DNA of 64,000 nt from Acholeplasma hippikon (lineage in GTDB: Bacteria > Bacillota_I > Bacilli_A > Acholeplasmatales > Acholeplasmataceae). Below are positions 15,084 through 18,471 of this stretch, in pieces. Position 1 is the first letter of the stretch. Each line of letters begins with the position of its first letter. Location of the stretch: contig NZ_LR215050.1 in assembly GCF_900660755.1 (NCBI RefSeq), positions 310,001-374,000 on the forward strand, written 5' to 3'. The translations under genes and the position numbers were made by a program. Under the pieces are notes generated by a model that did no database searches, was not told the DNA's origin, and saw nothing but the letters and a program-made list of their open reading frames with translations.

Positions 15084-15158
15084 AATTTTTCCTTTTTGTT
15101 AATAAACATATAAATTGTAACATAATTAAGCAAGAAAGTGCATAAGATTTAAAAATAA

Positions 15159-15177
15159 TTCGAATTCGAAATATAAT
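15159..15177 (+). promoter_or_regulatory. MhqR-box-like palindrome just upstream of the -10
   Basis: The 12-bp perfect palindrome TTCGAATTCGAA (15159-15170) abuts a TATAAT (15172-15177), 33 nt before the mhqO-like start. Its core matches the TCGAATTCGA centre of the published Bacillus MhqR operator (family knowledge). A MarR-type gene in the same operon makes an autoregulatory operator the natural reading. Confidence 0.75.
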
Positions 15178-15209
15178 AAAAGTATGATAAAAAAAGGAAG
15201 TATAAAGAT

Positions 15210-16373
15210 ATGAACATTAAAGGTATACATCATGTGTCATCAATTGTATGGCACGCACAAGAAAACTTAGATTTTTATGCAGGCGTATTAGGATTAAAAC
15301 TAGTTAAAAAAACTGTAAATTTTGATGATGAAAGAATTTACCATACTACATTTGGTAACCATCAAGCAGACTTAGGCACATTAATGACTTTTTTCCCATG
15401 GAAGCAAAATTTTAAAGAAGGTGTGATTGGCGATGGTCAAGTTTTTAAGACAACATTTGTTATCCCTAAGGGAAGCATGTTGTTTTGGAAAGAACGTTTA
15501 GCTAAATTTAAAATTTCGTATAGTGAAGTTTCAAGATTTAATCAAATTTATTTAGTTTTTAAAGATACGCATGGTATTAATCTTGAATTAGTAGAAGATA
15601 CTTTTTATGTTAAAAATAATCATGAATTTAATGGTGTAACAAAAGATTATGCAATTCAAGGAATCATCGGAGCAACACTTTATAGTCATGATTATGAAGC
15701 TACTAAAAACTTTTTAATTGAAAAATTTAATTTAAAAGTCATTGATGAAAATAATTACTTCATTCGATTTGATGCTAATAACAATCAATTCTTAGATTTA
15801 TATAAAGAACAAACTGTTTCATCAAAGATGGGAGCAGGAACAACGCATCATATCGCATTCACGGTAACTGATGATACGTTAGTCTCATTTATCGATGTTT
15901 TAAAAGAAAGTGGAATAAATGTTGAAATAAAGGATAGAAAATACTTTAAGTCAATTTACTTTAGAGAACCGGGTGGCATTTTATTTGAATTAGCTACAGA
16001 TAAACCAGGAATGTTAATTGATGAAGATGACTCAGATGAAATTAAAATTCCTCCTCATTTCACACATCTAACTGATGAAATTAGAAATGATTTAATGCCT
16101 ATATTCGTAAGAGAAATTGATCAATTACAAACTTATAATTATCAAGATAGAGCAAGTTATGAAGATTATATTTTCCATAAAAATGTATTAGACAAGATAA
16201 ATTATTATGCAAAAGAATCAAAAATTAGAGCACTTACTGAAGCAGAGTTAATTGAACGTGACAAATTAAGAAAAGTATATGTGAAGCTAATCGTTGGTCA
16301 AGTTAAACAAAACTTAGAAAATGTATCTGTTGAAGATAAAGATGGAAACATCAGTAGGCTAACAAAAAAATAA
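15210..16373 (+). CDS. MhqO-like ring-cleaving dioxygenase (VOC) fused to a DUF896/YnzC-like domain
   Basis: 387 residues. The first ~300 are two paired glyoxalase/VOC modules of the MhqO type, with metal-ligand candidates in GIHHVSSIV, TTHHIAFTV and GGILFELATD; these enzymes act on hydroquinone or glutathione-type adducts. The normal family end (IPPHFTHLTDEIRNDLMPI) is passed, and residues about 325-387 then match the DUF896/YnzC pattern: INYYAKESKIRALTEAEL, RDKLRKVYVK, LENVSVEDKDGN. MhqO homologues are about 312 residues, so the ~75 extra residues fit a fusion. First gene of a four-gene operon; the RBS before 15210 is AAAAGGAAG. Confidence 0.88.
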   Translation: MNIKGIHHVSSIVWHAQENLDFYAGVLGLKLVKKTVNFDDERIYHTTFGNHQADLGTLMTFFPWKQNFKEGVIGDGQVFKTTFVIPKGSMLFWKERLAKFKISYSEVSRFNQIYLVFKDTHGINLELVEDTFYVKNNHEFNGVTKDYAIQGIIGATLYSHDYEATKNFLIEKFNLKVIDENNYFIRFDANNNQFLDLYKEQTVSSKMGAGTTHHIAFTVTDDTLVSFIDVLKESGINVEIKDRKYFKSIYFREPGGILFELATDKPGMLIDEDDSDEIKIPPHFTHLTDEIRNDLMPIFVREIDQLQTYNYQDRASYEDYIFHKNVLDKINYYAKESKIRALTEAELIERDKLRKVYVKLIVGQVKQNLENVSVEDKDGNISRLTKK

Positions 16374-16384
16374 GGAGATAAGCT

Positions 16385-17371
16385 ATGGATAATATTTTAG
16401 GAATGCACCATGTAACAGCAATTACTTCAAGTGCACCAAAAATTTACAGATTTTTTACAGATATTTTAGGTATGAGAATGGTCAAAAAGACTGTTAATCA
16501 AGATGATATTCAAACCTATCATTTATATTTTGCTGATGATAGAGGAAATCCAGGAACAACGATGACGTTTTTTGACTTTAAAGGCATACGTCGTGCAGTA
16601 CATGGTAATAATGAAGTCTCACGCACCACATTCCGTGTGCCAAGTGATGAAGCAATTTATTATTTTGAAAAAAGATTTGTTAAATATGAAATTAAACATC
16701 AAAAACCGTATAAATTATTTAATAAACTTATGATTAATTTTGAAGATTTTGATGGACAACGTTATGCACTAATTAGTGATGAAACAAAAGCAAGCTATGA
16801 TAAAGGAACTCCTTGGTTTAATGGACCTGTTCCAAATGAATTTGGTATTATTGGTTTAGGACCAGTATTTATGCGTGCAAAAGATTTAGAACGAATGGAG
16901 CGTATATTAACTGATATTTTAGGTTTCAGAAAAGTAGAGAAAGAAAATGCATTCTATTTATATGAAGTTAATGTCGGTGGTAACAATGAATCTGTGATTA
17001 TAGAACATAATTTACTTTTACCAAATGCTGTTCAAGGATTTGGTGGTGTGCACCATATTGCATTTAGAGTGAAAAATAGAGAAGAAATGGCCAAGTGGGA
17101 AGATTTCTTTGAATCATTTGGTATTCCAAATAGTGGTTTTGTTGATCGATATTATTTTAGAAGTTTATATACAAGATTATATCCAAATATCTTATTTGAG
17201 ATTGCAACAGATGACCCAGGATTCATCGATGATGAAGATACTTATGATATTTTGGGTGAGAATCTAACACTACCGCCTTTATATAAAAATAGAAGTGAAT
17301 ATGTGTATAGTGTGATACAATTATTTGATTCATCTGATGCAAATAAAAAACGTGAAAAAGAATACTTGTGA
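16385..17371 (+). CDS. MhqO-like ring-cleaving dioxygenase (VOC family)
   Basis: Second member of the same family, 328 residues, without the DUF896-like tail. Paired VOC modules show GMHHVTAITSSAPK at the N-terminus (His ligand), VHHIAFRVK in the second half and LFEIATDDPGF as the Glu-bearing end motif. It lies 11 nt after the fused paralogue with AAGGAGAT as RBS. In Bacillus, paralogues MhqA/MhqO protect against quinones and thiol-depleting electrophiles; the same role is inferred here. Confidence 0.9.
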   Translation: MDNILGMHHVTAITSSAPKIYRFFTDILGMRMVKKTVNQDDIQTYHLYFADDRGNPGTTMTFFDFKGIRRAVHGNNEVSRTTFRVPSDEAIYYFEKRFVKYEIKHQKPYKLFNKLMINFEDFDGQRYALISDETKASYDKGTPWFNGPVPNEFGIIGLGPVFMRAKDLERMERILTDILGFRKVEKENAFYLYEVNVGGNNESVIIEHNLLLPNAVQGFGGVHHIAFRVKNREEMAKWEDFFESFGIPNSGFVDRYYFRSLYTRLYPNILFEIATDDPGFIDDEDTYDILGENLTLPPLYKNRSEYVYSVIQLFDSSDANKKREKEYL

Positions 17372-17379
17372 GGCATCTG

Positions 17380-17808
17380 ATGGAACAAGATAGTTTAAAG
17401 ACAATGCGAATTTTGTTTAGAGCACATCAAGCAGTTGAAACCTACGCAAAAAAAGACATTCTTTCATATGGTTTAACTTTAAATGAGTTTACAGCTTTAG
17501 AAGTTTTGTATCACAAGGGTAAACTTCCTGTACAAAGTGTGTGCGATGCAGTTTTAATTCCAAATTCATCGATGACATATGTGTTAGACAAACTTGAAGT
17601 TAAAAAGTTAATTACAAGAACTCAAGACAAATTAGATAAAAGAACTTACTATGTTGAGTTATCAGAAAATGGTTTAAATTTTTCAAATGAAATTTTTCCA
17701 AAGCACTATGAACATATGAGAAAAGTATTTGATATACTCTCAACAAATGAACAAGAATCACTTAATCAATTATTAAAAAAAATCGGTTATTTTGCTAAAG
17801 GAGATTAA
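17380..17808 (+). CDS. MarR-family regulator, MhqR-like
   Basis: 142-residue winged-helix regulator. The HTH spans about residues 43-70 (LPVQSVCDAVLIPNSSMTY) and is followed by the wing DKLDKRTYYVEL. The start at 17380 is chosen because GAGG lies 6 nt upstream; the GTG at 17368 lies before that RBS and overlaps the previous stop. A single Cys (VCDAV, inside the HTH) could be a thiol sensor, but this is a guess. Position within an mhqO/mhqD-type operon with a palindrome at its promoter argues for an MhqR-type repressor. Confidence 0.88.
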   Translation: MEQDSLKTMRILFRAHQAVETYAKKDILSYGLTLNEFTALEVLYHKGKLPVQSVCDAVLIPNSSMTYVLDKLEVKKLITRTQDKLDKRTYYVELSENGLNFSNEIFPKHYEHMRKVFDILSTNEQESLNQLLKKIGYFAKGD

Positions 17809-17812
17809 AAAA

Positions 17813-18412
17813 ATGAAGTATTACGTTAGAAATAAAAAATCAAATAAGACGCAATTACTTTTTCATGGTACAGGTGGAAGTTATAGAGATTTAATCTCAA
17901 TTGCAGAATATATAGATCCAAGTTCAAACTATATTGCTTTTGAGGGAAATGAATTAGAAGAAGGCATGCGTCGTTTCTTTAAACGACATGCAATTGGTAA
18001 ATTTGATATCCCTAACTTAGAATTAAATACAACTGAACTTGATAAGGATATCAAAGATATTAAACAAATGAATGAATTTAAAGATACTAACTTTGTTGCA
18101 ATGGGTTTTTCAAATGGTGCAAATATTTTAGAATCATTATTTCAAATGTATCCAGATAGTCTAAAAAACTTCATGTTGTTAAGTCCTGTATATGTAAGAA
18201 AAGATTTGAAATTTAAGGATTTAACAGGACTTAATATCTTAATTGTTACATCATATAATGATCCATATACAACTAAAAAAGACCTTGAGTTATTAATTAA
18301 TGACTTAAAAGATGCAAATGCGAATGTGGATCTATATTTACATGATGCTGGACATCGTTTAACTGAAGGGGCATTAAATTATGCAAAAGATTGGTATTTT
18401 AGAAATATTTAA
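17813..18412 (+). CDS. MhqD-like hydrolase/carboxylesterase
   Basis: 199-residue alpha/beta hydrolase. Visible are the oxyanion motif LLFHGTGGSYRDL, nucleophile elbow GFSNGANI, an Asp in TSYNDPYTT and His in DAGHRLT. The pattern, including NELEEGMRRFFKR, closely follows Bacillus MhqD. It starts 5 nt after the MarR-type gene with AAAGGAG as RBS; the TTG at 17792 is rejected. Likely role: hydrolysis of products or adducts of quinone detoxification, in the cytoplasm. Confidence 0.88.
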   Translation: MKYYVRNKKSNKTQLLFHGTGGSYRDLISIAEYIDPSSNYIAFEGNELEEGMRRFFKRHAIGKFDIPNLELNTTELDKDIKDIKQMNEFKDTNFVAMGFSNGANILESLFQMYPDSLKNFMLLSPVYVRKDLKFKDLTGLNILIVTSYNDPYTTKKDLELLINDLKDANANVDLYLHDAGHRLTEGALNYAKDWYFRNI

Positions 18413-18471
18413 ATGAAATGATTTAAAATCATTTATAATAGATATGCAGTAAAAAGTTAAAGGAGTTTAAG

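Follow-up and report, generated by a model that had tools for sequence, protein, structure and literature searches.

Does a bacterium that lacks a cell wall carry a self-regulated operon for quinone detoxification, together with an operator to match? The question is raised by a 64,000-nt stretch of the Acholeplasma hippikon genome (contig NZ_LR215050.1, positions 310,001 to 374,000; hereafter the window), in which the original prediction placed a complete mhq-like operon: two MhqO-type dioxygenases, a MarR-type regulator and an MhqD-type hydrolase behind a single promoter. Four plus-strand genes do occupy 15210-18412 among the open reading frames of the window, and their coordinates and spacing (intergenic gaps of 11, 8 and 4 nt) are as predicted. 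The locus comprises:

15148 to 15177, plus strand: promoter with a weak -35 (TTTAAA at 15148-15153 or TTAAAA at 15149-15154) and the -10 TATAAT at 15172-15177, from a promoter scan and a 46-site alignment
15156 to 15173, no strand assigned: candidate MhqR-type operator TAATTCGAATTCGAAATA with core TTCGAATTCGAA at 15159-15170, a palindrome kept 5' of the operon in relatives
15210 to 16373, plus strand: MhqO-type ring-cleaving dioxygenase of 387 aa, two VOC modules and a C-terminal DUF896, 42% identical to B. subtilis MhqO (3OAJ)
16385 to 17371, plus strand: second two-module VOC dioxygenase of 328 aa, nearest solved relative 1ZSW (B. cereus)
17380 to 17808, plus strand: predicted MhqR-type MarR repressor of 142 aa, nearest structure S. 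aureus MhqR (9QDR)
17813 to 18412, plus strand: MhqD-type alpha/beta hydrolase of 199 aa (NCBIfam MhqD 115 bits; 2H1I E 3.6e-38)

The gene 5' of the operon lies on the opposite strand and is presumably pheA-like, as named from its sequence; the next gene on the 3' side is a separate NUDIX gene (Pfam). "Complete" proved too strong a word for an operon that has MhqO-type, MarR and MhqD-type genes but contains neither a quinone reductase nor a nitroreductase, in contrast to the B. subtilis regulon. An AT-rich hairpin 3' of the hydrolase gene (18405-18445, z -2.2) is a possible weak terminator or processing site.

The regulator has the MarR Pfam match expected of it, and its best structure match is S. 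aureus MhqR (SaMhqR), at E 7.2e-29 with 57 of 131 positions identical. Seven of nine key DNA and quinone residues are identical to those of SaMhqR and invariant in a 34-row alignment that includes SaMhqR itself: the DNA contacts S63, S64, Y67 and R88 (SaMhqR S65, S66, Y69 and R90) and, in the quinone pocket, F37, E41 and H109 (SaMhqR F39, E43 and H111). The two exceptions are SaMhqR S68, replaced by Thr in our regulator and in 31 of the 34 rows (a conservative change), and the pocket residue F11, which is Met here and variable among relatives. The signature was compared with that of 14 other MarR proteins of the relatives, left from 24 loci after 10 without a tblastn match were dropped. Among these, F39 occurs in one, E43 in none, S65, S66 and Y69 in two each, and H111 in three; R90 occurs in 13 and therefore does not discriminate. 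Structure match, residues and operator together support assignment of the protein as a putative repressor of the MhqR family.

For the enzymes, the predicted identities held unevenly. The first dioxygenase stands as MhqO-type: it matches 3OAJ at E 7.7e-77, and its modelled two-module VOC fold agrees with that structure at a TM-score of 0.92 (target length). H7-H8, H213-H214 and E260 are invariant across 16 aligned rows, and we take the conserved His/His/Glu to be metal ligands. The second had also been called MhqO-type, but its structure matches place 1ZSW (4.9e-65) ahead of 3OAJ (1.2e-51). The nearest structure of the hydrolase, 2H1I, is a carboxylesterase with which its Ser, Asp and His stretches align, but its NCBIfam MhqD score (NF047577) is far under the 325-bit curated cut-off and is not an equivalog match. 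We regard it as related to MhqD and probably alike in function.

The palindrome that had been predicted beside the -10 of the operon promoter is present: the core lies inside the -35/-10 spacer, and the right end of TAATTCGAATTCGAAATA overlaps TATAAT. The promoter scan rated the -35 poor and found 24 sites in the window as against 24.0 in shuffles; given this lack of excess, the promoter call rests on operator position and conservation. The core had further been equated with the centre of the Bacillus MhqR box. One spelling of that consensus was not found in the literature searched, and the comparison was made instead with the S. aureus MhqR operator, given as the 9-9 bp palindrome TATCTCGAA-ATCGAAATA in PMC12893000 and PMC6798810. 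TAATTCGAATTCGAAATA is identical to it at 15 of 18 positions, and an operator of this 9-9 bp palindromic type is thus found on the -10 of the operon.

A search for further boxes in the same genome, which the original prediction had proposed as a check, returned no second copy of the exact 12-mer TTCGAATTCGAA, which occurs once in 1.47 Mb, at the operon. With up to three mismatches allowed to the 18-mer TATTTCGAATTCGAAATA, the operon site (one mismatch) was joined by one other (three mismatches, one in the core). This second site, TACTTCAAATTCGAAAGA, was not taken as an operator: its core is changed, and on the plus strand, the one examined, no gene of at least 70 aa starts within 250 nt downstream. 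One box means one operon, and the regulon in this genome appears to be a single self-regulated operon.

How far box, regulator and enzymes travel together was assessed in relatives, from which we fetched 25 regulator homologs and 13 further loci and examined 32 distinct loci, 25 of the first set and seven of the second (L057-L060 and L068, repeats of loci already counted, and L069, from Hymenobacter at 33% identity, were left out). The second dioxygenase lies directly 5' of the regulator in 27 of the 32, the hydrolase is present in 24, and all four genes occur in the window order in 15, one of them (L034) with its first gene disrupted. Queried with the S. aureus operator, 23 of 31 loci showed a match upstream that was significant on shuffling (p<0.01); the window and L064, which has too little upstream DNA, were excluded here, and for L033 the start used lay 5' of the box. 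The local consensus TATTTCGAATTCGAAATA gave a site of at least 13/18 in 30 of 32 evaluated loci, window included; L055 and L067 yielded no convincing upstream site in either scan. TATAAT overlaps the right end of the box across the 46-site alignment, which is partly circular within the 18 bp, as 30 sites were picked by similarity and 16 by the exact 12-mer.

Across 61 genomes, the box (plus one flanking base) occurs in 22 of 26 that bear the regulator (E below 1e-28) and in two of 35 that do not (Fisher 1.5e-10, shared ancestry ignored). One of the two box-only genomes, G058, is 85% complete, and the four other sampled members of its genus all have the regulator. The four regulator genomes without an exact box have one change (G004), a variant (G009, G022) or a variant before the regulator alone (G006). 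A regulator profile search of 160 genomes of the order found strong homologs (E below 1e-50) in 45 and weaker matches in four more. The predicted conservation of regulator, box and enzymes as a module is thereby borne out: they are found jointly across Acholeplasmatales, with the SaMhqR signature residues kept.

Two minor observations belong here. At L034:2719-3709 (Acholeplasmataceae UBA4853) the frame of the first dioxygenase is broken, by decay or assembly error, and the other three genes are intact. About 10 nt upstream of the box (15140-15145 in the window) a weaker element, GCA(A/T)AT, recurs at many main and secondary sites in relatives; it could be a further half-site or else an upstream promoter element.

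The box reaches beyond the operon in relatives. G007 lacks the second dioxygenase in its operon and has such a gene elsewhere, with a perfect box of its own some 50 nt upstream of the start, so that each part of this split operon has a box. Of 17 further box sites, 13 adjoin a gene for an FMN reductase, a VOC enzyme, an MhqO-like or second-type dioxygenase, a luciferase-like monooxygenase or an mhqD-like hydrolase (identified by Pfam for 10 proteins, the rest by likeness). The others are L135, L136 and L137, where neither strand has a gene of 70 aa or more that begins within 250 nt of the box, and L133, where the contig breaks off on one side of the box and a GH88 gene lies on the other. MhqR is described as controlling dioxygenase and quinone reductase genes in B. 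subtilis and S. aureus, and on this pattern of sequence the box and regulator of the relatives are read as an MhqR regulon. In L140, L145 and L147 one box lies between divergent genes for a VOC protein and for an unknown protein of about 130 aa (one was tested and had no Pfam match), the latter a candidate new member of the regulon.

Taken together, the findings give good support for a genuine MhqR-type operon and operator in an Acholeplasma, and the locus is very probably a self-regulated, MhqR-kind operon for detoxification of electrophiles (quinones). A dimer of the 142-aa MarR protein would sit on the palindrome between -35 and -10 and block the promoter. Quinones or hydroquinones would enter the F37/E41/H109 pocket and shift the DNA-binding loop, releasing the repressor; quinone-driven release by such a shift has been proposed from the SaMhqR structures. 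The derepressed operon would then supply two ring-cleaving dioxygenases that open the ring, a hydrolase that processes the cleavage products, and more repressor, the operon being self-limiting because the repressor is encoded within it.

Could the MarR protein act at this box and yet have another aromatic compound, such as a phenolic acid or a homoprotocatechuate-like catechol, as its natural inducer, with matching substrates for the enzymes? VOC dioxygenases act on many catechols, the pocket residue F11 of SaMhqR is replaced, and by E-value the best NCBIfam match of the regulator is HpaR, of the homoprotocatechuate operon, although at 50 bits it is under the 121-bit cut-off. Against this, the SaMhqR structure matches far better than any other (7.2e-29 vs 6.7e-7 for HpaR), no aromatic catabolic genes were seen adjoining the operon, and E41 and H109 are invariant, their counterparts E43 and H111 contacting the quinone carbonyls in SaMhqR. 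We consider an inducer other than quinones unlikely. Far less probable still is a palindrome that is a chance AT-rich sequence or the site of another regulator, with the MarR protein acting elsewhere: AT-rich DNA often contains short palindromes and -10 motifs, and promoter-like sites in the window are no commoner than in shuffles, but the 12-mer is unique genome-wide, the full 18 bp is conserved in distant genera, and the box both co-occurs with the regulator and is re-used before functionally related genes.

The quinone-responsive MhqR-type operon proposed here is best compared with S. aureus mhqRED, as described in PMC6798810 and PMC12893000. Each has a MarR repressor (putative here, sharing seven of the nine key DNA and quinone residues), a 9-9 bp palindromic operator at the promoter, and one operon, autoregulated there and apparently so here, for a dioxygenase and an MhqD or MhqD-type hydrolase. 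They differ in gene order (R-E-D vs dioxygenase-dioxygenase-R-D here), in operator position (-6 to +12 vs between -35 and -10 here) and in the DUF896 fusion of the Acholeplasma operon. The B. subtilis MhqR regulon (azoR2, mhqNOP, mhqED and mhqA; PMC6798810) likewise has an MhqO-type dioxygenase, an MhqD-type hydrolase and a similar operator; however, it is spread over several operons with an azoreductase and a nitroreductase, whereas here there is one box and one reductase-free operon, which would be a natural one-operon version of the MhqR regulon. The literature searched held no report of MhqR in Acholeplasma, Mollicutes or Erysipelothrix and none of an Acholeplasma with a ring-cleaving dioxygenase; papers on Acholeplasma, quinone and MarR looked unrelated in the parts available. 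An experimentally known quinone-sensing repressor, with its operator and regulon, would be extended to Acholeplasma, a moderate surprise given the wide distribution reported for MhqR homologs in Firmicutes.

The host fits the description "wall-less". Its genome (99.46% complete) has no penicillin-binding transpeptidase domain, which is present in 10 of 14 control genomes, and the named species nearest to it, judged by the regulator gene, are Acholeplasma oculi, A. granularum and A. laidlawii. The module as a mark of wall-less bacteria was nonetheless ruled out: Erysipelothrix is walled, three of its loci (L062, L065 and L067) share the four-gene order of the window, and the box recurs at several Erysipelothrix loci. 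What remains of the claim of a module outside walled Bacilli is that it is kept in Acholeplasmatales without being peculiar to wall-less bacteria; a cell wall is no prerequisite for it.

The DUF896 fusion is an addition that the original prediction missed. DUF896 (PF05979) forms the C-terminal part of the first dioxygenase (residues 326-380; 16185-16349), with a Pfam score above the gathering score. The model of the 387-aa protein (mean pLDDT 88.8) has long helices at 314-339 and 344-370 after the 3OAJ-like core, in a block of pLDDT 89-95. Stand-alone DUF896 proteins, of which we take YnzC to be an example, share this 55-residue helical hairpin, but here it is fused to a dioxygenase. Of 16 aligned first dioxygenases, 13 have the domain according to Pfam; those lacking it seem to be the three Erysipelothrix rows, two of which have a shorter tail that looks similar. 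It occurs once each in 14 of the 61 genomes, always at the end of the MhqO-type dioxygenase gene, and in these (our genome and 13 related ones) it is the sole DUF896 found. Matches occur in 86 of 392 genomes sampled from the phylum: nine lie in frames of 397-408 aa, all of the MhqO-type dioxygenase family, and the other 77 in stand-alone frames of 58-103 aa.

The fusion gives a functional context to a domain of unknown function. We suggest tentatively, as a reading with somewhat less than even chances, that in Acholeplasmatales that keep the operon the genome's only DUF896 became permanently joined to the C-terminus of the quinone dioxygenase, tying its function (possibly docking or oligomerisation) to electrophile defence; if so, the function of DUF896 would be open to study in these organisms. 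In G003 the frame of the DUF896-bearing dioxygenase gene is broken.
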